Below are positions 6,111 through 26,813 of a stretch of DNA of 32,962 nt, one piece after another. The stretch's first letter is position 1; each line of letters opens with the position of its first letter. The notes under the pieces are model-generated. The model was not told the origin of the DNA and did not search any database. It worked only from the letters and a program-made list of their open reading frames with translations. Origin of the DNA: Planctomycetota bacterium (GTDB lineage Bacteria > Planctomycetota > UBA8742 > JACQVU01 > JANLHZ01); the NCBI GenBank assembly GCA_024653775.1, contig JANLHZ010000073.1:1-32962 (forward strand). Reading direction: 5' to 3'. Position numbers and translations under genes: made by a program.

Positions 6111-9100
6111 ATGGAAATTTGTCTGTCAGATAATAGTCGTTATGACCTTTGTGCAAAACGCGGAGCGTTTGCGCAGTGGATGCATTTTGCCCTGATCGCA
6201 TTCAGCGCGACTTTAGTCACGGCCTGCTCGGAATCTCAGGGCGCAATCGAAGCGGCAGTCGGACCGGCGCCGATTTCGGTGGAAACGAATGAGGAGCCGG
6301 GGAGCGAAAAAGAATCGCTTACTTCGAGCCAGGGCGCGCCGGAAATATCCGCGGCGAAGATGGAGGAACTTCTCTCGGAAGAAATCGCGATCGACGCGGA
6401 GTTCTATGATCTGAACGAAGTCTCCCGCGATGACGAAGTGCCGTCGCTACGCAGGGCGAACTCGTACACGTTTCAGAGGTTTGACGGGCAACTGGTATCG
6501 CTGATTTCTCTCGAAGCGCTCAACTACGAAGACGAAGACGGCCACTTTCGACCGATAGACCTCGTCTTAGTCAAAACTCCTGTCGGGTGGGAGAACTCCC
6601 GGAACAGCGTGCAGGTCAGTCTTCCGGAAAGCTCGGGCGGAGCGGGAATTTCCGTGGATTCTTCCAAAGCCGATGGAATCCAGATGTGGGCGGAGACGAA
6701 GATGGTTCTGCTGGACGAATCGCTGAAAACGCTCGCAGTGCAAAAGCCCGCGAAGGTGAGCGGCGCGGCGACCTCAGACGGTGTTTCATTCAGCGAAACT
6801 TACCCTGGAGTGGCGGAGAAGTTCAGCACGATTGCGGGAGGAATCAAGTACGACCTCCATCTCGAACGTGAGGAAATTTTCTGGGCCGGGAAAGTCGGAT
6901 ACCTCGCGTTCTGCGAGAACGTGACACTTCCGGAAGGATGGTACTTCAGCGCGGGAGGCGTCAAGCAGACGGGAACCTTCGAGACCAGCGGCGACATAGT
7001 CGTTCACGACGATGAAGGAAACCCGTGGTACGCCTTCGAGGCGCCGCGAATATTCGAAGCCGGCGGGGAGGAGGACGAGAACCCGGATGGCGCCGCGGAC
7101 GAAATCGCTGGGCGATACCTCGTGCGGAAGAAAGGAATCGTGTGGGAGGTTCTCGTGCTTACGGACCTCGGCTGGCTGAACGATCCAGAAAGGGACTATC
7201 CCGTAGTCATCGATCCGACGACGAAATACTATCCGTCGGTGGCGTCGATGTGGACGGGGTACGTCAATAACGGGGGAACGAAATCTAGCGGAGCGATACG
7301 AGTCGGAAACGACAGCGGAACACTATACAACGGATGGATGAAGTTCGACATTTCGGGAGTGACTGACGGCTCGACGATCGCGGACGTGGCGCTGTCGTAT
7401 CTCGTTACGAGCGATGGAAACGCCAACGTCGACGCTAAGGTCTACGATATTTCGTCGGACCCGGTCGCGGCGGCAGGCGCGGCGCTTTACGCGGACGCGG
7501 AGGCGGGATCGGTCTACGATACCGACAACAACGTCGACTCCGTCGGGTGGCGAACGAGAACGCTTTCATCGCAGGCGCGGGCGGATCTTCAGAACCTTCT
7601 CGGCTCGGACTGGTTCGCGGTCGGGATCGATCCGTACGCGAACGTCGCCGGCGCGGGCAACTACGTTTCGATCTCGGGATACGACGCGGGCGCAAGCTAC
7701 ATACCCTACATCACCGTGACGTACGCGACTCCGGCGCTTTCCTACGAATGGGCCGGCGCCGGGAACGTGGAGGGCTGGACCATCGGCAACGCGATGAGTT
7801 CGCTCACCTGCGACGGAACATACATGAACGCGGTCATCAGCGGTAGCGACCCGCACACCTATGGTCCGGCGGTATCGTTCTCGGGCACGACCTACAAAAC
7901 GCTCCACATCCGCGCGCTCATCCCGTCGGGAATCGACTTCGACATTTACTTCATCACCGCGGCGGACGGCACGTTCGACGAAACGAAGAAGGTAAGGCTA
8001 TCCGTCCCCGACAATACGAACTTCTACGACTACTACTTCCCGATGTCGACCGCGGCGGGGTGGACAGGCCAGACGATAACGCAGCTTCGAATGGACCCAG
8101 GCTGGGGAAGCTCGGGAACGGCGCAGTTCGATTTCTTCAGGATGGAAAGCGGACCGGCGGGACTCTGGATCGGGAAAACCAGCACGGCGTGGGCGACCGC
8201 CACGAACTGGGCCGACGGAAACGTCCCCGGCGCGAGCACCGACGTTAGGATTTACAAGAACGCGGAGAACTGGCCCACGATGAGTTCGTCGACTTCCGTG
8301 GGATCGATATACGTCGAAAGCGGCGCGACGCTGACGATAACCGCGACGGACAACTGGGTGACGGTCGCGGGTAATCTTATCGTCGAAAGCGGCGCGACGC
8401 TGAGCCATCAGACTAACTGGTCAACGACCTACGGCTTGCAGGTAGGGGGCGACTTCACAATAGACGGCACGTACAGCTATCCGGCGAATTACCCCCTTGT
8501 ATATCTTTACGGGAGCGGGACGCACTACATACGCGGCACAGGTCTCGGCTACCTCTGCTTCAATAACGGCGACTTCTACGCGAGCGGCACGATTTCGTGC
8601 AACGCGGATTTGTGGGCCATGTGGAGCGCGACGGGTTCCTTACATACGAACGGTTACAGCGTCAGTTCCATCACGGGAGCGTACATCAACGGCGGGACGC
8701 TGTACGTCGAGGGCGGGACGTTCGCCACGCCGTCGCTGGTTCTCGGCTGGAGTTCGGGTCTGACCGCGACTGTAAACATGTCTGCCGGCACGATGAACGT
8801 CACGGGAAACCTGTACGTCGCCGGCGGAGGAAGCCAGACCGGGGTTCTCACGCAGAGCGCGGGTACGATCAACGTGTCGGCGAACGTCTACGTCGGGTAC
8901 GGCGCGAGTTCGAGCGGGACGTACAACATTTCGAACGCGGCGATAATCATCTGTTCCGGAAGTGTTTATAACGCGTACGGCGCCAGCTCGACCGGGGCGA
9001 TCAACCAGAGCAACACGTGCACGATCCTGATAGCGCTCGATTTCGACAACGGCTCAGGGGGGACCCTGACATGCACGAACACGCCTGCGATCGCGCTCCA

Positions 9101-12100
9101 GCGGGACTGGATAAACGACGGCACGTTCAATTACGGTCAGAGCCTCGTTTTCTTCTACGGCGGGAACAGTTGCAGCATCGGAGGCGCGACGGTCCCGGGG
9201 TTCTACGACCTGACCTTCTCGAAGGATTCAGCGGCGCAGACGATTTCGGTGGCGCAGGGAATGTCCGTCGCGAACGATTTTGCGATGTACGAGGGAACCT
9301 GGGACGTCGGCCCTGGCACGACGTCGAACACCTGGCACTGGATCTCCGGCGACTGCGACATCGAAGGCGGAACCATCACGATGAACGCAGGCGTCGGGAA
9401 TCAGGACGTCATCCGCGTTCTCGGGAACGTCGTCATCAATGGCGGAACATTTGGCGCTATGGCGAGCGGAAGCAGCGCCTGGCTCTGCGAGGGCAACTGG
9501 ACCTTCGGCGCGTCCGCGAACGTGAACATGGGATCGACCGGCGCGGTCTACTTCGGGAAGATCGAAGGGGATCAGGCGAAGACGACCGCGTACACAGACA
9601 GTTCCGGAGTGTGCAGCCTGCCAGTCGTGATCGTTTCCGGCGGAAGCACGACGAATCTCGCGTCGAATCTCGTCGCTAACTCGTCGATCCAGGTGATGAC
9701 TGGATGGGGCGCGCCAACGATTGCCTGTACGCTGAATATCGGCGCGTACTCGCTTTCGACGGTGTCGCTCGCAATAGGTACGCAGAACGGCGTCAGCGGA
9801 ACAGTGACGATGTTCAGCAATTCGTCCGCGCTCGACGTCACGTACACGCTTTCGATTTCGAGCGGAGCAACCCTCGACTGCAACAACGGAACTCCATACA
9901 GCGCGAGCATCACAGTCGGGCTGAACTGGACTCAGGACGGAACGTTCGACGCGGGAGGCTCGACTGTTACCTTCGACGACACGAACGACACGACGATTTC
10001 CGGCGCGGGCACGTTCACGTTCAGAAACATGACCATCGTGAAGACGGACGTCGCCGACCAGGTTATCGCGAACGCGAAGCATTTCGATCTGACCGGAAGT
10101 CTCACGATCACCAAGGGAACGCTCACGCTCGGCGCAACGGACGACGATTTCGAAATCGACGGCGCGCTCACGTGCAGCACCCGCGGCGCCATCAATCACA
10201 ACGTCGACTGGGACACCTGGTACAAAGCGCTCATCGTCGGCGGTAACTTCGATTTCCAGGGAACGTACAGTTACACCGGAAGAGGGCACGTGCAGCTAGA
10301 TTCGAACGGCTCCGCGACAAGCCGCAACGTGCGCTGCACGAACGGAGTCTGCATACTGACGCTGATGTACGGCGACTTCTACGCAAACGGCGCCGTGGTT
10401 GTCGATAACGACTTCTGGCCCATGTTCGGAACCTCCGGCAGCTTCCACACGAACGGGCAGACCGTCACGGCTAGCGCGGGGACATATACGTCAGGCGGCA
10501 CGCTGTACATCGACGGCGGAACGCTGAACGCGCAGCAGGTCTACGTCGGGCACGGAACCTTGGGCGGATCGCTCGTTGTCTCCTCAGGAACCCTGAATTC
10601 CACCGGCGAAATCAGGATAGGAAATCAGTCCGGTCTCGACGGCACTGCGTCGCTCACCGGAGGGACGATTAGCGCAACGAATTACTACAACAGCTACCAT
10701 GGGGACGCCGACGGGACGACAACCCTCGCAGGCGCGACGCTGAACCTCAGCGGGAATTTCTATAACCGTTACGACACGAGCGGGACGAACGCCTGCGCCT
10801 TCACGATCAGCGACGCCGGGGCGGTGATGAACGTCGCGGGAGACTTCGAAAACAAGACCGGCGCGACGTTCACCTGCACCGCCGCGGGGAACGCCTACAT
10901 CGGAGGCGACTGGACGAATAACGGCACTTTCACCGCTGGTTCGGGCACGTTTACATTCGACGAAGGGACGAACAGCTACATCAGCGGATCGAGCCGGACG
11001 TTCGGGAACCTCGTTTTCGACAAGGACTCCGTCACCGACGTAATCACCACGTCGGGAGCGCTGACGGTGAATTCGAATCTAACGCTGACGGAGGGGGAAT
11101 GGAACACTGGCGGATTCATCCATGCGGTCATCGGGAACTTCGTAGTCGACGGAGGCCAGGTGACGATGAGCGCCGGATCGCAGGAAGGGGTATACACCTA
11201 CGGCAACGTGACGATCGAAGGCGGCTCCCACCCGACGCCCGGGAATGAATATTCCGGCTATACCTGCGAGGGAAACTGGACCTTCGGACCGTCCGCGGTT
11301 TTCGATCCGGGAAAGGGCGCGGTGGTCATCGGGCAGTACGTCGGAACGTCCGCAAGAACATGCACGATAACGGATAACTCCGGAGGCAACTGTGTTTTCC
11401 CGCAACTTTTCATTGCGGGAGGGTGTACCGCGAATCTTGCAACGGATATTTCCGCGGGCGCCTGCGACGCGCCGTCGACGCTTGCGCCATCGCCAACGCT
11501 CATGGCGACGCTGAACGTCGGCGCGAACACCCTGACTACGGGCGCGCTGAACGTCAATCTCGTGAACGGAGTGAGCGCCACGATAAATCTTTTAGACGAC
11601 GACGCGACCCTCGATGTTGCGGGCGCTTTGACGATCGCGTCGACCGGAGTCATCGACTGCGAAAGCGGCTCCGCGTACGCCGCGTCGATCGAAGTCGGCG
11701 GGAACTGGACTAACGACGGAACCTTCGATCCGGGGTCGAGCACAGTCACGTTTGACGGGACTGTGGCGATCTCGGGTTCAGCGACCCACGACTTCAGCGG
11801 CATTACGATCGCGGGAACCCTCACCGCGCCCGCGCAGCTTTACATCTCCGGAGACTTCTCAAACGACGGCACGTTCAGTTCGAATGGCGGAGACGTCACT
11901 TTCGACGGAAGCACGACCGTGAGCGGAAGCGTCGGCACTACCTTCGAGGATGTCACGATAACCGGTTCAGTTACCGCCGCTACAGCGACCACGTTCGGAC
12001 CTACGACCCTCACCGGAGGCTCGATGACTGTGAACGCCGCGAAGTCGATAACCATTGCGGGAGACTTCACGGAATCCGGTACAAGCTCGGTCACTGTCCA

Positions 12101-15100
12101 GCCACGCGGATCGCTGAAGCTCGATGGCGCGGATGCGAACGCGCTGCCGACGACCATAGACACTCTCGATTTGCAGATGAACGCGCTTAACGCGAGTCAG
12201 GTGGTATTCCAGCGCGCGGGATCGCAGATCGTTCCCGCGCTCACGTACAAGATTCTTCAGATCGCGGGCACCGGGACGAAGACCTGCGCGGGGAACGTCG
12301 ACGTCGACTGGTCGATGACGATAAACACCGCGACATTCGATATCGGAAACTACGACCTGAACCTCGGCGCGTCGTTCACTAATAACGGCGGATTCACGCA
12401 AGGCTCCGGAATGGTCACATTCGACGACACGACCGGAGGAATCATGATGATAGGCGGAGATCCCATTGGCGGAACCAGTGTCACGACATTCGAAGACGTC
12501 ACCATCGCCGACGACTGCCAGATGAACGCCAACATTAATATGTCGACTCTGCTCCTCTCCGGCGCGCTCCTGAACGTCAAGGCGAAGACACTGACGATCG
12601 CAGGCGATTTCACCGAAGCAGGAAACACGACGCTTCAGATAAACTCGGGCGGAGTCCTGAACGTCGGAGGAAGCGGCGCGAACGCGCTCCCCGCGAGTAT
12701 CAACACCACGACGCTCAACGCGAACTCGACGATCGACTTCACCGGAGGAGCCGCGCAGACGATCCCCGTCGATACCTACGGCAATCTGACCATCAGCGGA
12801 ACTGGCGTGCGTTCCATCGCGGGAGATGTCGTCATAGCGGGGAATCTCCTCGTAAGCGCGGGCACGTTCGACAACGCCACGTTCGACGTGCGCGTAGGCG
12901 GAACCGTCACGGTGAACGATACGATGCAGATCGCCGGCGCGGACTCGCTGAACCCTGCCAGACTTCTGAAAAACGGCGGCGGCACGCTCTCCATTGTACA
13001 GGGTGCAAACGCAACCATCGGATTCATCGACGTCATCAATCACGACGCTACCGCGGACCCGACGGCATTCGCGATCTCCGCAGGCGGCGCGGGCGCGCAG
13101 ATACTCTTCCAGCGCCCATCGTTCGACGAGTTCCAGGTTGGCTGGAGCGCGTACGTCGACTTCATAACGGGTTACACCGGAAACATCATCGCGATGGAAG
13201 ACCCGGATTTCGAGAACAACTCCTTCGCCGCGTCGCCCAGAAACGTGAAGGTCGCGGATGCTGCGTCGCCAATGGTCATAGTGATGGGAGGACGCGGACT
13301 TATCCACGGCGAAGAGTTCGACGTCGATCAGTACGCCCGTGTTCGATGGTACGTCGGACCGCCCGAGTACGAGATCGTCGAGACGGGAGCGACGTACAGC
13401 GAAATCTCGGACGCCATCGCTGCCGCGAGCGCGGGGCAGACCGTCCGCGGCACCACGGGTATGCCGACGTTCGAGGACGTCGTCGTCGACAAGGCAATCA
13501 CGCTTGAGGAACTGCTCGTCGTAGGCGACGTCATTTGCAACGTCGACACCGCTTCCATCCGCAACTGCTTCATAGAAGGTGATCTCGGCACCGTGGGCGG
13601 CGAGTTCCGCTACGTCTATCACTGTAGCGTAAACGGAAACATTCACGTCACCGGATCGTCCGGAGCCGGCGCCGCTAGCTGGAACATTCTGACGGGAAGC
13701 GTAACCCTCGCAAGCGGCGCGTCAGCTAGTCTCAACCTCGATGGCATCACGCCCGCGAACTACTGGACGAATCCGTCGCTCTGGGACTACCACCTTGTCT
13801 CCTCCGCCGCGAGCGCGATAAACTCCGCCGCGGGATCGACCGTGACGCGCGACTTCGACGGGCAGGCAAGACCAGGCGTAGACGCAAGCCCAGACATCGG
13901 CGCAGACGAGCGCATAAGCTCCGGACTTGGCGACGTGGTGTGGGAGTCAGGCGCGCTCGGTCCGGTGAACCACAGCTATATCAGTTACTGGGGAGACAGC
14001 CTCTACTGGATGGCAACCGCGAATTCCGAGGGCGCGGGCGACTGGTCGAATGCAATCGTCGCGCTCGACTCCGGGACGGGAGCGGTCATCGCCGGGTTGC
14101 GAGGCTCCGGAACCAACACCGGCTTCGCGAACTCCCTCGTGACGTTCAGCGGCGCAGCGACCTCCGTGAACGTTCTGAACGTATCATCCGGAAAATACGA
14201 CATCTACGTCACTTACGATTCAAGCGCAGACGGACGCGCCGACAAACTATCGAAAATTCGCGCGTCCTACTCCGGCGCGCTCTCCTCCGCGAACCGGCCC
14301 ACATGGTCCGGAGCGAGCGTCGAGTGGACGTTCACCGCAAGCGAGGGACCGATTTCCGCTCCCGCGTTCAACTTCGTCAGCGCGGGGATTTTCGATGTCT
14401 ACTTCATAGCCGACAGCAATAGTTCCGGGACGAACGGCACCGGAAACACGAACCCGGTTATCTACCGCGTCGATAACGATCCGCTTTCCGGTGGATACGG
14501 AACGGCAAGCGCATCGAGTCAGCGCGCCGGAGTCCCCCACTACGATTATCAGTACGGAGCGAGCGTTTTCGTCACGGGCGAAATCACCTGCGCGCTCAAG
14601 TCGAACGTCAGCGCAGACTACGACGTCGTGCGCCTCGACGCCTCGGACTTCACAGCGATGGACGAACACGACGTCGGAATAAACGGTCTCGTCGCGGCTC
14701 CGACCCCGGCAAACCTTGGGACCAGGGAAATGTGGCTCCTTGGCGGTGACGACACGTTCTACCGCGTCGATATGGCGGTGCCGGAAAACAGTTCGCCGTT
14801 CGATCCGTTCGACATTGGAACGGGCATCGCAGCGGTCGACGACGCGGCGGAAATCGTCGCGCCTCCAAGGACGATGTTCAACACCCCCTGGATTTTCGGC
14901 GGGTACGAAGAATCCGGCAGAAGCTATCTATTCAAAATCGATCACACGAGTGGAGGAACCGACGACGACTGGATCGCCTCGGCGGGCGCAAGGGACGACC
15001 AGACGATGATCGGCTCCGTGCTATCGAGCGGCGTCTGGTACGACAGATTGAACGATCACGTCTGGTGCGTTACCGACCTGGGATACCTCTACGCGTTCTA

Positions 15101-15272
15101 CTGCCCGAACGTCGCGGCTGCGAGCGGGGACGACGGAACCGTCCGCGCGGGCTACCCGGTGAGAATATCTGACGCGAACGTCCGCTACATAAAATGGGGA
15201 TTCAACACTCCGGTGCCGGTGATTTATTTGTCGCTCGAAAGCGGGCGGACGATCGCCATCAGAATAAAATAG
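6111..15272 (+). CDS. Giant surface lipoprotein 1 (solenoid stalk, C-terminal propeller)
   Basis: About 3053 residues in one uninterrupted frame. A signal peptide ends at the lipobox LVTA|C (Cys codon 6225-6227), predicting a lipid-anchored exported protein. Regions in order: an N-terminal domain shared with paralogue 2 (EFYDLNEVSRDDEVPSLR; LNDPERDYPVVIDPT near 7190, a YD-repeat/Rhs-type signature); a DNRLRE-like domain (about 7219-7730); a carbohydrate-binding-like jelly-roll candidate (7736-8155, VEGWTIGNA...ITQLRMDPGWG) absent from paralogue 2; the WIGKTSTAWATATNW module; long Gly/Thr/Asn-rich beta repeats (8330-12950) with NWT.DGTF..G...FD units; a beta-helix-like segment ending DFDGQARPG...DIGADE (13380-13915); and a probable beta-propeller to the end. 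ATG 6111 is preferred over TTG 6096; ATG 6180 would leave a minimal signal peptide. Function is unknown; adhesion, matrix or glycan binding is inference. Confidence 0.85.
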   Translation: MEICLSDNSRYDLCAKRGAFAQWMHFALIAFSATLVTACSESQGAIEAAVGPAPISVETNEEPGSEKESLTSSQGAPEISAAKMEELLSEEIAIDAEFYDLNEVSRDDEVPSLRRANSYTFQRFDGQLVSLISLEALNYEDEDGHFRPIDLVLVKTPVGWENSRNSVQVSLPESSGGAGISVDSSKADGIQMWAETKMVLLDESLKTLAVQKPAKVSGAATSDGVSFSETYPGVAEKFSTIAGGIKYDLHLEREEIFWAGKVGYLAFCENVTLPEGWYFSAGGVKQTGTFETSGDIVVHDDEGNPWYAFEAPRIFEAGGEEDENPDGAADEIAGRYLVRKKGIVWEVLVLTDLGWLNDPERDYPVVIDPTTKYYPSVASMWTGYVNNGGTKSSGAIRVGNDSGTLYNGWMKFDISGVTDGSTIADVALSYLVTSDGNANVDAKVYDISSDPVAAAGAALYADAEAGSVYDTDNNVDSVGWRTRTLSSQARADLQNLLGSDWFAVGIDPYANVAGAGNYVSISGYDAGASYIPYITVTYATPALSYEWAGAGNVEGWTIGNAMSSLTCDGTYMNAVISGSDPHTYGPAVSFSGTTYKTLHIRALIPSGIDFDIYFITAADGTFDETKKVRLSVPDNTNFYDYYFPMSTAAGWTGQTITQLRMDPGWGSSGTAQFDFFRMESGPAGLWIGKTSTAWATATNWADGNVPGASTDVRIYKNAENWPTMSSSTSVGSIYVESGATLTITATDNWVTVAGNLIVESGATLSHQTNWSTTYGLQVGGDFTIDGTYSYPANYPLVYLYGSGTHYIRGTGLGYLCFNNGDFYASGTISCNADLWAMWSATGSLHTNGYSVSSITGAYINGGTLYVEGGTFATPSLVLGWSSGLTATVNMSAGTMNVTGNLYVAGGGSQTGVLTQSAGTINVSANVYVGYGASSSGTYNISNAAIIICSGSVYNAYGASSTGAINQSNTCTILIALDFDNGSGGTLTCTNTPAIALQRDWINDGTFNYGQSLVFFYGGNSCSIGGATVPGFYDLTFSKDSAAQTISVAQGMSVANDFAMYEGTWDVGPGTTSNTWHWISGDCDIEGGTITMNAGVGNQDVIRVLGNVVINGGTFGAMASGSSAWLCEGNWTFGASANVNMGSTGAVYFGKIEGDQAKTTAYTDSSGVCSLPVVIVSGGSTTNLASNLVANSSIQVMTGWGAPTIACTLNIGAYSLSTVSLAIGTQNGVSGTVTMFSNSSALDVTYTLSISSGATLDCNNGTPYSASITVGLNWTQDGTFDAGGSTVTFDDTNDTTISGAGTFTFRNMTIVKTDVADQVIANAKHFDLTGSLTITKGTLTLGATDDDFEIDGALTCSTRGAINHNVDWDTWYKALIVGGNFDFQGTYSYTGRGHVQLDSNGSATSRNVRCTNGVCILTLMYGDFYANGAVVVDNDFWPMFGTSGSFHTNGQTVTASAGTYTSGGTLYIDGGTLNAQQVYVGHGTLGGSLVVSSGTLNSTGEIRIGNQSGLDGTASLTGGTISATNYYNSYHGDADGTTTLAGATLNLSGNFYNRYDTSGTNACAFTISDAGAVMNVAGDFENKTGATFTCTAAGNAYIGGDWTNNGTFTAGSGTFTFDEGTNSYISGSSRTFGNLVFDKDSVTDVITTSGALTVNSNLTLTEGEWNTGGFIHAVIGNFVVDGGQVTMSAGSQEGVYTYGNVTIEGGSHPTPGNEYSGYTCEGNWTFGPSAVFDPGKGAVVIGQYVGTSARTCTITDNSGGNCVFPQLFIAGGCTANLATDISAGACDAPSTLAPSPTLMATLNVGANTLTTGALNVNLVNGVSATINLLDDDATLDVAGALTIASTGVIDCESGSAYAASIEVGGNWTNDGTFDPGSSTVTFDGTVAISGSATHDFSGITIAGTLTAPAQLYISGDFSNDGTFSSNGGDVTFDGSTTVSGSVGTTFEDVTITGSVTAATATTFGPTTLTGGSMTVNAAKSITIAGDFTESGTSSVTVQPRGSLKLDGADANALPTTIDTLDLQMNALNASQVVFQRAGSQIVPALTYKILQIAGTGTKTCAGNVDVDWSMTINTATFDIGNYDLNLGASFTNNGGFTQGSGMVTFDDTTGGIMMIGGDPIGGTSVTTFEDVTIADDCQMNANINMSTLLLSGALLNVKAKTLTIAGDFTEAGNTTLQINSGGVLNVGGSGANALPASINTTTLNANSTIDFTGGAAQTIPVDTYGNLTISGTGVRSIAGDVVIAGNLLVSAGTFDNATFDVRVGGTVTVNDTMQIAGADSLNPARLLKNGGGTLSIVQGANATIGFIDVINHDATADPTAFAISAGGAGAQILFQRPSFDEFQVGWSAYVDFITGYTGNIIAMEDPDFENNSFAASPRNVKVADAASPMVIVMGGRGLIHGEEFDVDQYARVRWYVGPPEYEIVETGATYSEISDAIAAASAGQTVRGTTGMPTFEDVVVDKAITLEELLVVGDVICNVDTASIRNCFIEGDLGTVGGEFRYVYHCSVNGNIHVTGSSGAGAASWNILTGSVTLASGASASLNLDGITPANYWTNPSLWDYHLVSSAASAINSAAGSTVTRDFDGQARPGVDASPDIGADERISSGLGDVVWESGALGPVNHSYISYWGDSLYWMATANSEGAGDWSNAIVALDSGTGAVIAGLRGSGTNTGFANSLVTFSGAATSVNVLNVSSGKYDIYVTYDSSADGRADKLSKIRASYSGALSSANRPTWSGASVEWTFTASEGPISAPAFNFVSAGIFDVYFIADSNSSGTNGTGNTNPVIYRVDNDPLSGGYGTASASSQRAGVPHYDYQYGASVFVTGEITCALKSNVSADYDVVRLDASDFTAMDEHDVGINGLVAAPTPANLGTREMWLLGGDDTFYRVDMAVPENSSPFDPFDIGTGIAAVDDAAEIVAPPRTMFNTPWIFGGYEESGRSYLFKIDHTSGGTDDDWIASAGARDDQTMIGSVLSSGVWYDRLNDHVWCVTDLGYLYAFYCPNVAAASGDDGTVRAGYPVRISDANVRYIKWGFNTPVPVIYLSLESGRTIAIRIK
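8442..11760 (+). repeat. Ancient tandem duplication of a ~595-residue module in giant protein 1
   Basis: Landmarks recur in the same order at near-constant spacing. VGGDF...GTYSY (8442) recurs at 10236, an offset of 1794 bp. NGDFYASG...WAMW..TGSLHTNG recurs as YGDFYANG...WPMFGTSGSFHTNG. CEGNWTFG recurs, and the NWT.DGTFD.G.STVTFD block recurs at an offset of 1779 bp (9924 and 11703). The offset drifts by a few codons and the sequences have diverged, so the duplication is old and carries small in-frame indels. Boundaries are approximate. Confidence 0.75.
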
Positions 15273-15334
15273 CCGGATGTGAAATTAGACCCATCCCCTG
15301 AAAATCCGCCATAAAAGAGGGTGTAATGTAATCT

Positions 15335-15355
15335 AAATAGTCTATTAGACTATTT
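15335..15355. terminator. AT-rich palindrome after giant gene 1, possible weak terminator
   Basis: AAATAGTCTA (15335-15344) and TAGACTATTT (15346-15355) are exact reverse complements around one T, followed by TATTT. The position, 62 nt after the stop codon, suits a terminator. The stem is nearly all A-T and the T-run is broken, so termination is uncertain; an operator-like palindrome for the next gene is an alternative. Confidence 0.3.
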
Positions 15356-15542
15356 TATTTCAAATGTTTCGATATGTCTTTTGCACCTTCCCACTTCCCA
15401 ACGAGACCATGAATATGGTAAAATTTTTTGCATTGTGGATTAGGCATAGTTAGTTGTATATGTAATTTGAATTGTCGGAAACGCCCACTGACATGATGGT
15501 TTCTTCGCCGGATGCAGATGTCCCTGAGCCTCTGAATTCCAA

Positions 15543-18500
15543 ATGATTGCAGCGTCGACCAGATTAACCAATTTCCTCACCGCAAAGTGCGGCGAGAGAT
15601 GGCGTTTACTGCCTGAATTACGCTTCGCGCTGGCTCTCGCACTCGTAACGCTGACTGCCTGCGGCGATTCGATTTCCAAATTCGGAATCGATCCGGCGAA
15701 AGTGGAGATCCCGAAGCCGGGCGGGGTTGTAGTGGGTCAGCCTCAAGCGACGGGCGGGCAGGAGCAGCCGATTCCTTCACAACCGGAAGTGGTTGTTCAG
15801 GAACTGTCTCAGGACTCGATTCTGGTTGCTTCCGAGTTTTATGAAGCGAACGAAGTCTCCCGGGAAGACGAAGTGCCAGCGCTCCGGGATGAGTTTTCCT
15901 ACACGTTCGCCAAGGAAGACGGCTCGTACGTCGCGTTCATCACCCCGGAAGCGACGAATTACAAAGACCCGGACGGTCTCCTTCGCCCCATCGATAACTC
16001 GGTAGTCGAGAGTGAAAGCGCGGAGCACCCGGACCATGCTTTCGAGAACACTACCAACGCGCAGAGGTCGTTCTTTCCGAAAGACGCAGGCGGAACTGTA
16101 GTCGTCGAGCATTCAGGCGATACGGGGTCCGTAATTCTGCACGAGGAGCCGGGGATCGCCTGGATAGCGGACGGGATCGGGCGCTATCCAGTCGGAGGGC
16201 GCAAGTCCAGTCTTCCGGTCGCGAGCGGAAACTCGGTAACGTATGACGACGTCTACTACGGCGCTTCGGAGCGTTTCTCCGTAAGCGGAGCGACGATAAA
16301 GCACGAGCTAATTTTGGAGTATCCGCTCGAATCGTCCGGTGGCGGCGCATACCTCGCGCTTTCGGAGATCGTTACGCTTCCAGAGGGCGCAAGTCTTTCG
16401 AGCGTAAACCCCGCGATCGATGGACCCAACGGGACTTCATACCTCGATCTTGTAGTCCTGGACGCCGACGGAAACGAAATCGGATCGTTCCCAAGACCCG
16501 TGGCGATCGCGGAAGGGGTCAAGAAGCCCGCGGATAAAAGCGATGCTTCCGGCGCAGGCAACAAAGGCCGCGACGAATCGGAGTCCAGAACCGCAGTCGG
16601 ACCGCCGCCGCTGACGCAGAGCTTTGGAAGGGCGTCGAGGGGATTCTTTCGGGCGGAGATGCTATCTCCCGGGCGCTACAGGATCGACACCTGTTTCGAC
16701 GGAGAATGGCTCGCTAGCGGGGACATCGTTTATCCCGTGAGCCTCGATCCGACGTACTACGCGAGCGCGACGAACTCGAACGGCGACGTAAACTACTACT
16801 ATCTGAACATCTATCGTAGCTCGGCATTTTTTACCGTAGGTGCTACCGACTACTGGGACTGTGACGACTTCTACGACGGCTACACCGAATTCAACACGAC
16901 GTCTATTCTCGACGGTTCGACCATCAGTGCGCTCAGCCTGTCGTTTTACGTCGAATACGATTACGCAGTCCAGAACGACATTTACATCACGCCGATGTCG
17001 ACGAAGCCAAGCACGAATAATAGCGGATTGTCGCTAAGTGACGACATCAACGACGGGACCGCGTACTACGGGCTCGCGAGTATCGCTTCGACCGGATGGA
17101 GAACCTGGACCATGCCCGCCGCGGCGAGAACGGATATGGCGAACCTGCTCGCGTCGAACTGGTTCGCATTCGGGTTCAGATCTTATGACGTTTACTACTG
17201 CGACGACTACTGCAACATCAGCGGCTGGGGAGACGGCACCCGTTCGTACATCACCGCGACCTACACCTACGGCGGCGCGCACGTATGGATCGGGGGAACG
17301 AGCACCGCATGGGCAACCGCAGCCAACTGGAGCACGGGCACCGTTCCGGGAGCGGGAAACGACGTCGTAATCCCGGGAGGATGCACGTATTATCCGAGCT
17401 TCACATCAGGCACCGCGAATTGCAACCGGTTGACTTTGTTCTCCGGCGCATCGATATCCGTCGCGGGCGGAACGCTCACCTGCGCCAACGACCTCGTTAT
17501 CAACTCCGGTTCGAGCGTTTCGGTGACAAGCGGCACACTTAACGTCAACGGCGCGTCGGGAGCGTACTGGAGCTACAACGGAATCGACTGCTTCGGAACG
17601 TTCACCGCGTCGGGAGGAACCGTCAGCGTGGCGCAGACCTTTGAGCTAGGTGGCGGGACCGCGACATTCTCCGGCGCGACCGCGACGTTCGGCGGATACC
17701 TCTACAACGTCCGCGGATACAATAGCACGATCAACGTGAGCGCGGGTTCCGTAACCTGCGCCAACATCCCGAACTATCAGGGAACCATCAATCACTCGGG
17801 TGGAACCATCTACGATAACGGCTACTACTACGAACAGTACACCGACGGCGGAATCTATTACGGCTCCGGTTCGGCGACGATCCAGTTCCAGGGCGGAGCG
17901 ACGAGCTACATCGACATCGAGCGCACAGAAACCTACTTCCGGAACATGAACGTCACCGGCTCATACTCCTACGGGAATATGGGCGGCGCGACGAATTCGC
18001 AGGACCTCGACATAAACGGAAACCTCAGCGTCACAGGCACGCTGGGCATGGATAAAGACGTCAACATCGATCTCGAAGGGAACGGAACCGTCAGCGGGAC
18101 TTTCAACTGGAGCGGAGCTGGAAACCTGTATCTTTACTGCGGAGGGAACTGGAACTCGAGCGGCGGAAGCGTCACCTACGATACGTATTTCATAATGGAT
18201 GGCGGAACGGGAAAAACGCTCACGTCCGGAGGCGCTAAGCATTTTCTCTATCTCTACGTCGAAAAGTCCGCGGCGGCGAACACCGTTACTTTGAATGGCG
18301 GAGTCAGGTGCGATCACCTCATTCATACGAGAGGAACTCTGGTCTTCAATTCCGCGGACGACGTTTTCGTCGCGGACGGGGTCTACTACGGCTACGGCGG
18401 CGCGGTGCTGCAGATGTCGAACGGAGATCTTCAAGTGAAATGGAGCAGCGCCGGAAGCTACGGTCCCTGGCACGCGAACGGTTCCGACGGATACGGTTCC

Positions 18501-21500: not shown

Positions 21501-24500
21501 GCGGGGATTTTGAAGCCCGACGCTTCCGCCACGATAAACGTCACCGGCGGCTGGACGAATAACGGAACGTTCACCCACAACTCCGGAACCGTGAATTTCA
21601 GCGGATCGTCGAACCAGACGATCTCCGGAAGCGGCGGCCTCGCCTTTGGAGGGATCAGCGTAAACAACACCGGAGACCCCGCGAGCGTCTACGTGCAACC
21701 TTCCGGCGCGCACTCTATGACGTCGCTCACCGTAAGCGACGGATGGTTCGACTGCGCGGGACAGACATGCACGATCACGGGAAACGTCTCCGTCGCGGCG
21801 TCGCAGCGCTGGTCGCTAAGCACGGTAGCGGGGGCGACGAATCTCGTAACCGTCGGCGGGAACGTCACGAACAGCGGTACGCTCGACGCGGGCGACGTCG
21901 GCACAGTGAACCAGACGACGGCCCTCGACGTTGCGGGCAATTTCACCTCGACCGGTACCGTGAACGTCACCGACCGCTGGATGATGTGCGCGGGCAACTG
22001 GGCGACATCGGGAACATATAACGGAAGCGGTGCGCAGATCCATCTCGACGCCGCGTCGGGAACTACGACGATTTCGCATTCCGCGGGCGGAACCGGACTC
22101 GGAACTATCGTGCCGCGCGGAGACACCGCCGCCCCGGCAAGCATCACGCGGGTCGTGCAGCTTGCGACAAACGTGACCGCGGCGGGACTACACATCGGAT
22201 GGGGATCTGACGGCGCCGTCCTCGATCTCAACAACAATACCTTCTCCACCAGCGCGTCCGTCACGATCCACTGGGGACGTATCGTGCTGGATCAGGCGTC
22301 TGACGTTCTATCCAGCGTCGGAATGACGGTCGGCAATTGGAATTACTCCGTTAACAGCGCAAACGGCTCGCAGTTCGTTCAGTCGAACGGGACGTTCACC
22401 TCCACCGGAAACGTGGCAGTCGTCGTTTCAGGGAACACCACCGCGGCGACGATGACAATATCCGGAGGCACATTCAATATTAACGGGAATCTTGCAAACA
22501 TAATGCTCGTATACGGGACGCTCAATGTTTCAGGCGGAACGCTTAACGTCGGCAGAGCCGCGACCGACAGTACCTCCGATATTCAGATTGCAAGGTCTCC
22601 GTACAACACGGCTGGAGCCGCGAACTTCAGCGGCGGCACAGTGAGCGTTGTGGACCAGGTAAAAGTATGGAACGCGTCGACGTTCAGTATGTCCGGAACC
22701 GCGGTTCTTAACGCGGGATCTTTCACCGGCGCGAACGCCGGCTCCGCGGGACCGAAGTTCGGCCTCAACAGCGGCTGCACCTTCAATATGACGGGCGGCA
22801 CGCTAAACGTTCAGCGAGAGAACTTCTCTGGCGGACAGCCGTCTTTCTATCTCGACTCAGCATCGACCACAAGCATTACAGGAGGAGTCATAAAGTTTGC
22901 AAACTCCTCCACGAACAACGTCCCGACAAAGTTCACCACGGGCGGAAAGACGCTTTACAGAGTCGAAATCGACATGACCAGCAGCGCGTATACGGTTACG
23001 CCGTATACAAATGCGGTCGCGCTTTCAGAGAATCTGAACGTGACCACGGGAATATACAGCGGTAACGCTCTCAATACAACCGTAGGCGGGGATCTTAGCG
23101 TCGGCGCGCTCGGAACTTTGAACGTGGCCGGCGAAACCGTCACCGTAAGCGGAGGAACCTCGATCGTCACCGGCGGGACTGTGGCTCTTTCAAGCGGGGC
23201 TATGTCGCTTTCCGGCGATTTCTCCAACAGCGGCACGTTCACCCATTCGGCGGGAACCCTCACGTTCCCCGGAACCACGAACGTTAACGGATCGACCTCG
23301 ACGTCGTTCGGGGATGCCACGATCACTGGAAGCGTCACGATGAGCGGCGCGACGAGCGCGACGTTCGCGAATATCACTCTCACCGGCGGAACCCTCGCAG
23401 CGGCCTCGAAGACGATAAACGTTTCCGGAGACATTTCGGAAAGCGGAACCACGACGATCAGCGCGACCACGGGAACGATCAACCTTGCGGGCGCGAGCGG
23501 TATACCCTCCGGCACGAACACGGTAAGCCTTGGCGCGACTTCCACCGTGAACCATAATCGCGCGGGCGCGCAGGCGCTGGGCGCGTTCACCTACGGGAAC
23601 CTGACGCTCAGCGGCTCCGGCGCGAAAACGCCAGGCGGAAACGTAGTCGCGGCCGGAAATTTGAATGTCGGCGCGGGGACGTCGTTCCCCTTCGGCGCGA
23701 ATCAGTCCCTCACGGTGGGCGGGACCGCGACCGTGAGCGGCGATCTTTCGATGGCGGGAACAAGCGGGAATCCGGCGATGCTCCTCAAATCCGGCGGAGG
23801 CTCGCTCTCGCTCGCTCTCGGTTCCGCGGCGTCGCTCACGCTAAGTAGCGCGACAAACGGCACAGGCGCGGGCAACGCGACGTCCTACGCGATCTCCGGC
23901 GGCGGGGCGAACGCAAGCGTCACAGTATCCGACGTTGCGTTCGACTACTTCCAGAGCGGGATGACGGCGTATCTCGACTTCCAGACGGGGTTCACCGGTA
24001 GCGAAATCGACGTCCAGAATCCGTACTTCGGGAACTCCAGCAACACTGTCGGCGCGAGGAACGTCAAGGTTGCCAGCGCCGGATCGCCGCTCGTTCTCGT
24101 CTTCGGCGGAGGCGGACGCATTTACGGCGAGGAGTACGACATCGACGCGAACAAGCGGGTGCGGTTCTACGCGAATTCGCCAGAATACACGAACGCGACG
24201 ACCGGCGCGACCTACGGTTCCCTCAGCGCCGCGATTTCCGCCGCGACCGCCGGCGACGTAATCCGCGGATCGTCAGGCGTTCCCTGCTTTGGCGACTTCA
24301 CGATCGACAAGCAGCTAATCCTCGAAGAAATTCTAGTGGTCGGAAATCTTTCATGCTCGGTGAACACCGTCACGATCAGAAACAGCTTCGTCAGCGGCAA
24401 CGTCGGAAGCGTCGGCGGCGAGTTCCGCTACGTCTACCATTGCAGCGTCGACGGTGACATTCACGCGACCGGAGCCGCGGGCGACGGCGCGGCGAACTAC

Positions 24501-26093
24501 AATCTGCTCACGGGGACGATCACGCTTGCGTCGGGCGCGACAAAGAATCAGAACCTCGAAAGCGTAATGGCGTCAACCTACTGGGTAAACGCGACGATCT
24601 ATGATTTCCACCTCAAGTCCACCGCGGCAGCCGCAATCGACCAGGCGACCGCGTCATCCGAGGCGCGCGATTTCGACGGTCAGACTAGATCGACCGTGGA
24701 TACAGATCCCGACATCGGCGCCGACGAGCGCATTTCGACCAACCTGGGTGGAGTGATCTGGGAAATCGACAACGTCGGTCCGATAAGTTATTCGTATATT
24801 AGTTTCGCCGGAGACAATCTCTACTGGGTTGCCACTGCCGCGTCGGACGGCGTCGGGGACTGGTCAAACTCGCTTGTCGCGCTTGACTCGGGCACGGGAG
24901 CGGTGGTCGCGGGAATACGCGGCTCCGGCACGAATTCGGGCTTCGCGAACTCGCTGCTGACGTTCTCCGGAAGCGTCAGTTACATCAACGTGATGCGCGT
25001 CGCGTCCGGAAAGTACGATCTCTACATCATCTACGACTCAGACGACGACGGACGTAGCGACCGTCTCTCCAAGATAACCGTTCCGTACAGCGGGACCCTC
25101 AGCCCGTCGAACCGTCCGACATGGGCTAGCGCAAGCGTCGAGTGGACCTTCGACGTCAGCGAAGGCCCGATTTCGGGTCCGACGTTCAACTTCGTCAGCT
25201 CCGGGATTTTCGACGTCTACTTCATCGCAGACAGTAACGCTAGCGGGTCGGACACTCCGTACGCGAACGGACTCCCCGCGCTGTACCGCATCGACAACAA
25301 CCCCGCGTCGGGCACTTACGGCGACGTAGTAGACTCGGACCAGCGCGCGGGCACGCCCCACTACAACTATCAATATGCCGTGAGCATTTTCGTGCCGGGC
25401 GAGCTGATTTGCGCGCTGAAGCCGAACGCAGCGATCGACTACGACGTCGTCCGGATCAACGCTTCGACGCTGGCGACTCTCGCGGAACACAACGTCGGCG
25501 TAAACGGAATCGCGGCCTCGCCGACGCCCGGAAACCTCGGCACGAGCGAAATGTGGATTCTCGGCGGGGACGACACGTTCTACCGCGTCGATATGTCCGG
25601 CCCTGCGAACGATTCGCCTTTCGATCCGTTCGACATAGGCGCGGGCATCGCAGCGGTGGATAACGCTTCGACGATCGAAGCTCCTCCAAGGACCATGTCT
25701 AATACGAACTGGATCTTCGGCGGGTACAGCGAATCCGGCAGAAGCTATCTCTTCAAGGTCAATCACACGAGCGGCGGAACCGACAACGACTGGATCGCGG
25801 CGGCAAGCGCTCGCGACGCGCAGATGATGACGGGCAGCGTACTTTCGAGCGGTATCTGGTACGATCGTCTGAACAGCCACGTCTGGGCGGTGACGGATGA
25901 GGGCTATCTTTACGCGTTCTACTGCCCGAACGTCGCCGCGGCGAACGGAGACGACGGTAACGTCCGCGCGGGCTATCCGGTGCGAATTTCCGACGCGAAC
26001 GTGCGCTACGTCAAATGGGGGTTCAGCGCTCCGGTACCCGTGCTTTACCTTTCGCTCGAGAGTGGAAGAACTCTTGCGATCCGCATAAAATAA
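15543..26093 (+). CDS. Giant surface lipoprotein 2, paralogue of the preceding gene
   Basis: 3516 residues, uninterrupted. A basic N-region (RLTNFLTAKCGERWRLL) leads into LRFALALALVTLTA|C, a lipoprotein signal peptide. The N-terminal domain matches paralogue 1 (EFYEANEVSREDEVPALR), followed by a DNRLRE-like domain and WIGGTSTAWATAANWSTG (about 17283). The jelly-roll-like domain of paralogue 1 is missing. A longer solenoid-like middle (about 17400-23760) follows, with WTN.GTFT.G units, an exact 232-codon tandem duplication and a second duplicated module (VYYGY...SGWSENI). The last ~775 residues align colinearly with paralogue 1, including the DFDGQTR...DIGADER signature and the propeller candidate ending LSLESGRTLAIRIK. 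There is no autotransporter barrel, LPXTG motif or typical type IX sorting tail; attachment presumably relies on the N-terminal lipid. A 270-nt gap from paralogue 1 permits separate expression. Role unknown. Confidence 0.85.
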   Translation: MIAASTRLTNFLTAKCGERWRLLPELRFALALALVTLTACGDSISKFGIDPAKVEIPKPGGVVVGQPQATGGQEQPIPSQPEVVVQELSQDSILVASEFYEANEVSREDEVPALRDEFSYTFAKEDGSYVAFITPEATNYKDPDGLLRPIDNSVVESESAEHPDHAFENTTNAQRSFFPKDAGGTVVVEHSGDTGSVILHEEPGIAWIADGIGRYPVGGRKSSLPVASGNSVTYDDVYYGASERFSVSGATIKHELILEYPLESSGGGAYLALSEIVTLPEGASLSSVNPAIDGPNGTSYLDLVVLDADGNEIGSFPRPVAIAEGVKKPADKSDASGAGNKGRDESESRTAVGPPPLTQSFGRASRGFFRAEMLSPGRYRIDTCFDGEWLASGDIVYPVSLDPTYYASATNSNGDVNYYYLNIYRSSAFFTVGATDYWDCDDFYDGYTEFNTTSILDGSTISALSLSFYVEYDYAVQNDIYITPMSTKPSTNNSGLSLSDDINDGTAYYGLASIASTGWRTWTMPAAARTDMANLLASNWFAFGFRSYDVYYCDDYCNISGWGDGTRSYITATYTYGGAHVWIGGTSTAWATAANWSTGTVPGAGNDVVIPGGCTYYPSFTSGTANCNRLTLFSGASISVAGGTLTCANDLVINSGSSVSVTSGTLNVNGASGAYWSYNGIDCFGTFTASGGTVSVAQTFELGGGTATFSGATATFGGYLYNVRGYNSTINVSAGSVTCANIPNYQGTINHSGGTIYDNGYYYEQYTDGGIYYGSGSATIQFQGGATSYIDIERTETYFRNMNVTGSYSYGNMGGATNSQDLDINGNLSVTGTLGMDKDVNIDLEGNGTVSGTFNWSGAGNLYLYCGGNWNSSGGSVTYDTYFIMDGGTGKTLTSGGAKHFLYLYVEKSAAANTVTLNGGVRCDHLIHTRGTLVFNSADDVFVADGVYYGYGGAVLQMSNGDLQVKWSSAGSYGPWHANGSDGYGSGWSENITGGTISIYAYGVHATYRTAMFEAGSNFTPTGGTFRFLDAATTAQTVYLKIAEPTNFNFYNLTIDNYRTVYLENSAGEVCDINGSFTINAGGTFLSQGISMEVAGGWTNSGTYTHGNSIVYFDGTGSQSISAGGTGVSKAFYRVYVTGAGTCTMTSSMQVDQSFFVQGGTFAINNYSLYTLNSLTGSATISVGAEVDLTGASSYWRPSAANNGTLTISGTLDLNAGAVSTDAAMVLAAGGVVNQDGGTLGVGDNFTINGDYNGNAGTLRGRSDGDASTPQITINVAGTYCYDFFSDGGTTGTPTTLNGTQSLTVLNSVSIPSGDELSMNGVALLVGGNWTNAGTFTHGSNIVTFNGTGTQTIIAGGTGAGYRFYDVYVSNAGTTQLGGNLEVERNFQVQGGIFAVNNYSLYTLNVAAGSASISAGAEVDMTGASSYWRAADQNNGTLTISGTLDLNAGNFTTDSSVTLAAGGVVNQDGGTIGVGDNLTINGDFNGNAGTLRGRSDGEGVSPQIIVNVAGTYCYDFFTDGGDTGTPTAMSGSQPLTVLHDVSIPAGDELSAGSVTIYVAGNWTNNGTFTEGTSTIDFNGSSSSALSGTLNFYNLIMSKSSTSYDVTPGATMTVGNNFAISGGNLANGSYTHVIGGNCTKSGGRITMTLAACALDIAGNFTNSAGDVSISGGGRLLVAGNVAISGNNSFVPSDVRLHMDGSGTQTISMSGTNNKIANYLYSSSGGTVQATSALSIYHLIHTTGGFDVNGQTITTDGVYYGYSGATLTMASGTMNIGQNGYGGGTYSPWYCASGWSENISGGTVNLRGASHATYGNAGFDSGCNFTPTGGTFNLIGNDATKEIWVGEATNFNFYNLGMGDGTNATNVTLRNVGGQQALDVNGTLTINANATFTSNSKPVEVAVNWTNGGTFAQGTGMVTFDGSAAQVIGGSTTTTFYDLIVNNTAGSPSDSVDVDPSGAVNATGTLTVNDGQFSPATGSAFANVTVNAAGILKPDASATINVTGGWTNNGTFTHNSGTVNFSGSSNQTISGSGGLAFGGISVNNTGDPASVYVQPSGAHSMTSLTVSDGWFDCAGQTCTITGNVSVAASQRWSLSTVAGATNLVTVGGNVTNSGTLDAGDVGTVNQTTALDVAGNFTSTGTVNVTDRWMMCAGNWATSGTYNGSGAQIHLDAASGTTTISHSAGGTGLGTIVPRGDTAAPASITRVVQLATNVTAAGLHIGWGSDGAVLDLNNNTFSTSASVTIHWGRIVLDQASDVLSSVGMTVGNWNYSVNSANGSQFVQSNGTFTSTGNVAVVVSGNTTAATMTISGGTFNINGNLANIMLVYGTLNVSGGTLNVGRAATDSTSDIQIARSPYNTAGAANFSGGTVSVVDQVKVWNASTFSMSGTAVLNAGSFTGANAGSAGPKFGLNSGCTFNMTGGTLNVQRENFSGGQPSFYLDSASTTSITGGVIKFANSSTNNVPTKFTTGGKTLYRVEIDMTSSAYTVTPYTNAVALSENLNVTTGIYSGNALNTTVGGDLSVGALGTLNVAGETVTVSGGTSIVTGGTVALSSGAMSLSGDFSNSGTFTHSAGTLTFPGTTNVNGSTSTSFGDATITGSVTMSGATSATFANITLTGGTLAAASKTINVSGDISESGTTTISATTGTINLAGASGIPSGTNTVSLGATSTVNHNRAGAQALGAFTYGNLTLSGSGAKTPGGNVVAAGNLNVGAGTSFPFGANQSLTVGGTATVSGDLSMAGTSGNPAMLLKSGGGSLSLALGSAASLTLSSATNGTGAGNATSYAISGGGANASVTVSDVAFDYFQSGMTAYLDFQTGFTGSEIDVQNPYFGNSSNTVGARNVKVASAGSPLVLVFGGGGRIYGEEYDIDANKRVRFYANSPEYTNATTGATYGSLSAAISAATAGDVIRGSSGVPCFGDFTIDKQLILEEILVVGNLSCSVNTVTIRNSFVSGNVGSVGGEFRYVYHCSVDGDIHATGAAGDGAANYNLLTGTITLASGATKNQNLESVMASTYWVNATIYDFHLKSTAAAAIDQATASSEARDFDGQTRSTVDTDPDIGADERISTNLGGVIWEIDNVGPISYSYISFAGDNLYWVATAASDGVGDWSNSLVALDSGTGAVVAGIRGSGTNSGFANSLLTFSGSVSYINVMRVASGKYDLYIIYDSDDDGRSDRLSKITVPYSGTLSPSNRPTWASASVEWTFDVSEGPISGPTFNFVSSGIFDVYFIADSNASGSDTPYANGLPALYRIDNNPASGTYGDVVDSDQRAGTPHYNYQYAVSIFVPGELICALKPNAAIDYDVVRINASTLATLAEHNVGVNGIAASPTPGNLGTSEMWILGGDDTFYRVDMSGPANDSPFDPFDIGAGIAAVDNASTIEAPPRTMSNTNWIFGGYSESGRSYLFKVNHTSGGTDNDWIAAASARDAQMMTGSVLSSGIWYDRLNSHVWAVTDEGYLYAFYCPNVAAANGDDGNVRAGYPVRISDANVRYVKWGFSAPVPVLYLSLESGRTLAIRIK
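18375..21103 (+). repeat. Two copies of a 'VYYGY...NFTPTGGTF...NFNFYNL' module in giant protein 2
   Basis: Copy 1 runs about 18375-18701 and copy 2 about 20802-21104. Both read DGVYYGY.GA.L.M, then SGWSENI.GGT (GSGWSENITGG, ASGWSENISGG), HATY, NFTPTGGTF and NFNFYNL, each preceded by HLIHT and followed by a WTN.GT unit. The offset changes from 2427 to 2403 bp across the module, so indels have accumulated. The two copies flank the 696-bp tandem duplication. Confidence 0.75.
18822..20213 (+). repeat. Exact-length 696-bp (232-codon) tandem duplication in giant protein 2
   Basis: Unit 1 is 18822-19517 and unit 2 is 19518-20213. Independent landmarks all sit exactly 696 bp apart: V.G.WTN.GT.THG, NNYSLYTLN (19035 and 19731), GASSYWR, LTISGTLDLNAG, GVVNQDGGT.GVGDN, and GNAGTLRGRSDG (AAGG at 19325 and 20021). 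No indel is detectable. A third partial start (VAGNWTNNGTFTEG) begins at 20214. Nucleotide similarity is high but many third positions differ, so the event is recent relative to the other internal duplications though not brand new. Confidence 0.9.
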
Positions 26094-26250: not shown

Positions 26251-26676
26251 CTATATAGCTTTCCAGTTCAATAGCTGGAGGTTCCCCTTCACTTTCTGCA
26301 GCGCCTCGTAATCCTTGATGTTGTAAGTCGCAATCGAAAGTCCTAATTCGAAGGCGACACAAGCATTCAGAATATCGATTGTTCCGCTTTTATCGTTCGG
26401 TTGACGACCCTTCCTTTTAAGAGCAGCTTTTATAAACGGAAACAAACTCCACGCAGCCACGTCGATCTCGACAACGGCGATGGCGCTTATGAGATCGTCG
26501 ATAGCTTCAAGTGAAACGCCGGGATCCGACTTACTTGCCGGCATCACCTGCAATTCAGCGATGGTCGCTCTCGAAATGAATACGTTTGAAAGCCCGACTT
26601 CCTTGAGGCGATCCGTTATGTCGAGCTTGCGCTTTAAGTGCTCGGAGCAAACGTCGGTATCGAGAAGAACGCGCAT
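26251..26676 (-). CDS. PIN-domain toxin, VapC-like
   Basis: From the ATG at 26676 the protein has 141 residues. It carries the PIN-domain acidic pattern: Asp6 in MRVLLDTDV, Glu in SRATIAELQ, a third acidic position in KSGTIDILNACVAFELG, and the C-terminal TYNIKDYEAL. PIN toxins are Mg2+-dependent ribonucleases, usually cleaving tRNA or rRNA and neutralised by a cotranscribed antitoxin. A TTG start at 26709 would add 11 residues and overlap the stop of the upstream antitoxin fragment as TTGA. ATG 26676 gives the canonical N-terminus, but neither has a good ribosome binding site. The upstream antitoxin appears truncated, so toxin activity or expression may be altered. It is less GC-rich than its neighbours, hinting at transfer. 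Confidence 0.8.
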   Translation of the reverse strand: MRVLLDTDVCSEHLKRKLDITDRLKEVGLSNVFISRATIAELQVMPASKSDPGVSLEAIDDLISAIAVVEIDVAAWSLFPFIKAALKRKGRQPNDKSGTIDILNACVAFELGLSIATYNIKDYEALQKVKGNLQLLNWKAI

Positions 26677-26705
26677 TGGATGAAATTTGAAACTAAGTTG
26701 ATTTT

Positions 26706-26813
26706 TCAATTCAGGAGATCGTCGTCATCATTAAAATCAGACCACGCTCCGAACAGCGACCTGATTTTCTGAAGCTTGCGCTCCTGCTGCCGAAGGTTCT
26801 GGTTCGACCTCGC
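26706..26813 (-). pseudogene. C-terminal fragment of the toxin's antitoxin
   Basis: The minus-strand frame ending at TGA 26706-26708 reads NLRQQERKLQKIRSLFGAWS and then DFNDDDDLLN. A basic helix, FGAW, then an acidic tail is typical of the toxin-binding end of VapB/Phd-type antitoxins. Its stop touches the toxin's alternative TTG start, as expected for a toxin-antitoxin operon. Further upstream the frame is open but reads as the antisense of the plus-strand remnant at 26776-27075, and no DNA-binding N-terminus or start codon with a ribosome binding site is visible. The gene therefore looks cut at about 26800-26815. An intact gene using an unusual start cannot be excluded. Confidence 0.45.

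Follow-up and report, generated by a model that had tools for sequence, protein, structure and literature searches.

What do two adjacent giant genes of a planctomycete encode, and which of their parts are kept while others are exchanged? We address this question for a window of 32,962 nucleotides, that is, the whole stretch of DNA that was analysed (contig JANLHZ010000073.1, positions 1 to 32,962, of the Planctomycetota assembly GCA_024653775.1). Giant bacterial genes reportedly encode surface proteins or PKS/NRPS for the most part, and they are abundant in Planctomycetes (PMC5177795).

Two intact giant genes with predicted lipid anchors

The two genes, here called A and B, lie on the plus strand and are separated by 270 bases (Table 1). 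We observed that both frames are uninterrupted and that both proteins start with a lipobox, as the initial annotation had described. The lipoboxes read LVTAC/SES in A and LTAC/GDS in B, where the slash follows the predicted lipid-bearing Cys. With lengths of 9.2 kb (A) and 10.6 kb (B), both genes exceed the 5-kb criterion for giant genes of planctomycetes. Scans of the whole proteins against Pfam and NCBIfam resulted in no match above threshold for A or B, and the sole traces were G8-like matches below the cut-off. Promoter and terminator scans around the starts of A and B gave nothing decisive.

Table 1. Coordinates of the features of genes A and B within the window.
Feature	Position	Strand	Basis
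Giant lipoprotein gene A, 3053 aa	6111..15272	+	Open frame; without Pfam/NCBIfam match above threshold
A signal peptide, lipobox LVTAC, predicted lipidated Cys39	6111..6227	+	Sequence pattern
A type I N-terminal domain (DEVPxLR ... NYxDxDGxxRPID ... YPVVIDPT)	6351..7220	+	Alignment; relatives in other planctomycetes
A DNRLRE/CBM96-like stretch	7284..7454	+	NF033679, E 7e-4, below curated cut-off; clear at same position in class relatives
A beta-solenoid stalk (predicted), begins with WIGKTSTAWATATNW cap (weak G8 match, E 0.018)	8166..12962	+	Pfam scan; AlphaFold2
A stalk segment common to paralog C107 (41% identity), partly duplicated in A at 8196-9302	9798..11102	+	
A conserved C-terminal module: predicted beta-helix segment to ~13913, predicted beta-propeller 13914-15269	12963..15269	+	Genome search, alignment, AlphaFold2, Foldseek
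Giant lipoprotein gene B, 3516 aa	15543..26093	+	Open frame
B signal peptide, lipobox LTAC, predicted lipidated Cys40	15543..15662	+	Sequence pattern
B type I N-terminal domain, ending YPVSLDPT	15786..16754	+	Alignment
B stalk, starting with WIGGTSTAWATAANW; best-matching paralog C281	17286..23780	+	
B conserved C-terminal module, predicted propeller 24732-26090	23781..26090	+	Genome search, propeller profile

A C-terminal module defines a family of eight

The C-termini of A and B align over 769 residues with 63% identity, which bears out the shared C-terminus that had been proposed for the pair. Identity increases along the alignment from 44% at its start to 87% at its end, and conservation peaks in the last ~150 residues (79-87%); this gradient is strong for A and B only and weaker in other pairs. 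When the last 769 residues of A were used as the query of a genome search, eight copies of the C-terminus were found, each ending a giant frame without internal stops. The family with a common C-terminus and divergent middles that had been postulated is thus present in this genome with eight members: A, B, C60 (3854 codons), C8 (5896), C241 (3773), C77 (5377), C281 (2775) and C107 (3191). Their sizes range from 2,775 to 5,896 residues (n=8), and together they comprise ~31,400 residues or ~94 kb, which is 1.7% of the 5.42 Mb assembly. The lipobox pattern occurs in all eight, and in three of them (C241, C281 and C107) an Asp directly follows the predicted lipid-bearing Cys. A module of ~720 residues is common to the eight proteins, and its position is always C-terminal.

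The eight giants are spread over seven loci: A and B lie next to each other, and the remaining six are singletons whose flanking genes differ. A tandem arrangement had been suggested as a trait of the family; this is not supported, as we found one pair among seven loci, where contig ends near the giant gene limit the view of the neighbourhood for C8 and C241. On contig C77, a secreted frame of 2128 codons (L021, 316-6702, minus strand) lies upstream of the giant gene and is divergent from it.

The C-terminal module is not covered by any Pfam or NCBIfam family. Its AlphaFold2 model, which was built from a shallow input of 10 sequences, is all-beta (pLDDT 74, pTM 0.64); the first part consists of helical turns that we read as a predicted beta-helix, and a predicted beta-propeller follows. 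With Foldseek, the model matches BamB propellers best among PDB structures (E 9e-9, TM on target 0.54-0.65, 10% identity); the next matches are mainly WD40 propellers. When the PDB was searched by sequence with the module, no relative and no match to BamB were detected.

The module is rare, an estimate that is based mainly on a propeller-profile search of 392 Planctomycetota genomes. Two genomes contain matches, namely the source genome (eight) and a genome of the same order, G001 (two); there were none in the other 390. A wider scan of contigs with a single peptide pattern yielded one relative, a groundwater Planctomycetota MAG (JACQVU010000174.1) that probably corresponds to G001; the module was thus detected in one genome besides the source. 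An origin from a phage or plasmid was also considered and rejected, as the search of plasmids and viral contigs yielded no match. In G001, one copy ends a secreted protein of 1341 residues (L036, 8886-12911, minus strand), which lacks a lipobox and whose body is of another, propeller-like kind; the other copy is interrupted by the contig end. The body of the 1341-residue protein contains repeats of type VGDSGTVIHYDGANWS, which apparently form a second propeller. Because the module sits here on a protein without a lipobox, lipid anchor and tip are separable.

N-terminal domains of two types

The N-termini of A and B share 30% identity over 612 residues (E ~1e-56). Across the family, however, the conservation of both ends that the initial annotation had assumed holds for the C-terminus only, as there are two types of N-termini: type I in A, B, C8, C281 and C107, and type II in C60, C241 and C77. 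A comparison of their profiles by hhalign revealed no persuasive relationship between the two types (probability of only 30% over 24 columns). Furthermore, the type I domain is also found in proteins other than the giants and occurs in 11 of 149 planctomycete genomes, including the source genome. When both ends are searched separately, the C-terminus is thus bound to the family whereas the type I N-terminus is not.

A domain similar to DNRLRE had been expected to follow the N-terminal domain in both proteins. In A, the DNRLRE profile NF033679 matches with 19.6 bits, below the cut-off of 34, whereas in B it has no match. The expectation is clearer in relatives from the same class: in L051 and L054, the N-terminal domain directly precedes a clear DNRLRE match (E 4e-18, 66 bits). 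In both, TIG repeats are present as well after the type I domain, and CBM96 matches in one of them (E 9e-8). The founding member of CBM96, the family of the DNRLRE domain, binds alginate (PMC9971899).

The N-terminus had also been described as of the YD-repeat type, which we did not recover: the window contains no RHS/YD repeats, and neither A nor B has a Pfam match above threshold. Membership in the RHS/YD (WapA) group was thus dismissed; matches to PF05593 occur only on contigs C66 and C121, outside the window.

Stalks as mosaics of segments

The middles of A and B are composed of 13.8-15.8% Gly, ~13% Thr and 7-8.7% Asn, in agreement with the stalk rich in these residues that had been noted. 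For a segment of 435 residues from the A stalk (residues 1230-1664), AlphaFold2 predicts an all-beta fold (pLDDT 79, pTM 0.76; shallow input of 4 sequences). The nearest PDB structures are weak matches (best E 0.05), mostly to beta-helix passenger or adhesin domains such as those of Ag43, Hap and EtpA. A regular beta-helix gains ~0.48 nm in length with each coil, which comprises ~22 residues. If the stalks were built in this way, they would be roughly 35 nm long in A and roughly 47 nm in B.

The stalk had been thought to change freely between paralogs. The middles are indeed divergent, but mere drift does not account for them, as segments are common to paralogs that are not neighbours and one is duplicated internally (Table 1). 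For instance, the best match of the A stalk is not the neighbour B but C107 on another contig (45% over 291 residues, E 4e-78), and the middles of C60 and C8 have several hundred residues in common (41-57%) at differing positions. The predicted binding-type modules also vary from paralog to paralog. Laminin_G_3 occurs in the middles of C8 and C60, DUF2341 (four times) and TIG (six times) in C241, and a P-domain with a beta-helix in C107; C77 has an H-type lectin match just under the cut-off and a DUF2341 match near the cut-off.

Sequences similar to the stalk were detected in 20 of 60 relatives (source genome included), often in frames of 2,000 to 12,000 codons. Planctomycete examples are G036:C46 (11954 codons), G055:C339 (5721) and G001:C181 (5375). 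As stalk and N-terminus are widespread and the module is restricted to the order, we conclude that the former are ordinary parts, whereas the latter is peculiar to this family.

The duplication is old and the parts differ in history

The pair had been read as a duplicated locus. A recent duplication is contradicted by the fourfold-degenerate sites. At identical fourfold-degenerate residues of the A and B C-termini, the same codon is used in 42% of cases compared to ~32% expected from base use, and no stretch of high agreement occurs anywhere along the alignment. In the stalk segment common to A and C107, the agreement is 43%. The fourfold sites are therefore near saturation, which indicates that duplication and exchange are old and that the C-terminus is conserved at the protein level. 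Recent gene conversion of the C-terminus was likewise rejected, as the sites are near saturation over its whole length, and nothing points to an assembly artefact there.

In the tree of the propeller, A, B, C60 and C8 are grouped (100/100) apart from C281 and C107 (100/100), and A and B are likely sisters (87/93). C60 joins the C-terminus of this group to a type II N-terminus, and the other three have type I. Since stalk matches and N-terminal types disagree with the propeller tree, ends and middles differ in history. As the comparison of N-terminal to C-terminal trees lacks resolution, we base the evidence of exchange on the stalk matches and on the presence of two types of N-termini. Separate histories for the cap and propeller sub-domains were considered and discarded; the trees do not reject a single history, the cap tree being poorly resolved.

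Possible roles of the giant lipoproteins

The reading that we consider best, and moderately probable, is that the eight giants are lipid-anchored and work at the cell surface as adhesins or as fibres that bind glycans, the stalk modules being exchangeable and the terminal propeller constant. They would be exported by Sec and anchored in the envelope by the lipid on the N-terminal cysteine. The long beta-solenoid stalk with its interchangeable carbohydrate- or surface-binding modules would project outward and end in one conserved piece, where a short beta-helix leads into a beta-propeller. Reach and specificity would then be set by the stalk and lectin modules, which may have been reshuffled between paralogs through ancient recombination and through duplication within genes. 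The propeller at the end may have a common job, for example binding of a shared ligand, self-association or capping of the solenoid. The intact frames, the lipobox in all eight, the common C-terminus, the mosaic middles and the predicted all-beta folds are shown by our data, and from these we infer surface exposure, adhesion and the role of the propeller.

Two observations count against such fibres, the Asp at position +2 in three of the eight giants and the module on the G001 protein without a lipobox. In enteric bacteria, Asp after the lipid-bearing Cys favours retention in the inner membrane, a rule that may not be this phylum's. The same Asp residues would fit periplasmic or inner-membrane structural lipoproteins that form a scaffold of the envelope and are not surface exposed, and no dedicated surface-export system was recognised near A and B. 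We think such a scaffold unlikely, however, as lectin-like modules on beta-solenoid stalks would typify exposed proteins, and an ordinary periplasm would hardly accommodate a long rigid stalk. The G001 protein suggests that the module can work without a lipid anchor, which would suit a sorting, docking or export-completion domain for a common envelope partner rather than a free ligand-binding head; the giants would then have both ends fixed, or would be secreted through a pathway of their own. The invariably C-terminal position points in the same direction, as does the strong conservation of the final ~150 residues between A and B, which is expected of a common recognition site. Yet this conservation is marked in that pair only, there is no obvious linked partner gene (the neighbours in the window are ordinary and the loci differ), and at ~720 residues the module greatly exceeds known C-terminal sorting domains in size. 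We regard a docking role as the main rival of the fibres but as rather improbable, if less so than a scaffold. The giants could also be extracellular enzymes that degrade polysaccharides with the beta-helix as a catalytic, lyase-type domain, as polysaccharide lyases have this fold too, the giants contain carbohydrate-binding-like modules and a GH4 glycosidase gene is located downstream (30972-32246). This we consider very improbable: no family of lyases or glycoside hydrolases matches A, B or the other middles, the one exception being a 3-keto-disaccharide hydrolase match just under the cut-off in C77, and the stalks are poorly conserved repeats.

The giants might further represent lineage-specific surface diversification, in which one planctomycete order maintains multigene giant lipoprotein fibres as a bacterial counterpart to the combinatorial families of surface antigens. 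Stalk and lectin cassettes as well as N-terminal types would have been swapped among dispersed paralogs, and a new terminal propeller would have been kept by selection. We offer this extension tentatively.

Comparison to known systems

Giant surface genes are already known from Planctomycetes, and the family is absent from the libraries searched. The giant genes of Rhodopirellula and Fuerstia (PMC5177795) are similar in size (>5 kb to >20 kb) and in their predicted functions at the cell surface, in adhesion and in carbohydrate binding; they are, however, a size class, whereas the eight genes here are one family with a common C-terminal module, lipoboxes and traceable exchange of segments. Large proteins with beta-helices and carbohydrate-binding domains have also been reported from related phyla (PMC12057145). 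A resembles secreted DNRLRE proteins including the WapA type (NF033679; CBM96) in having a domain that ends in YPVVIDPT before the DNRLRE-like stretch. Unlike the WapA type, A and B lack YD/RHS repeats and are predicted to be lipid-anchored and to have a solenoid stalk; the DNRLRE profile stays below threshold in A and has no match in B. The long, putative beta-solenoid stalk is reminiscent of beta-helix adhesins such as the autotransporter Ag43 and the two-partner EtpA, although the structural matches are weak. In contrast to these, the giants would be anchored by a lipid at the N-terminus; Pfam detected neither a C-terminal beta-barrel nor an N-terminal TPS domain in A or B, and the C-terminus is modelled as a propeller. 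The predicted fold of that domain is shared with BamB, a lipoprotein beta-propeller, whereas the low identity and the position of the propeller at the far end of the giants set the two apart, and nothing points to a BAM role.

We found no description of a family of eight mosaic giant lipoproteins with an order-restricted terminal module. Planctomycete giant genes have so far been described mostly singly and by size. The set of eight thus allows asking which ligands are bound, by what route the cell exports lipoproteins of up to 5896 residues and in what way the middles become diverse.

Lastly, we note two neighbours of the pair within the window. A gene of the YhgA-like/Rpn transposase family (PF04754, 2803-3945) is located two genes upstream of A and B, and a lone PIN-domain gene (26251-26709, minus strand) lies directly downstream of B.
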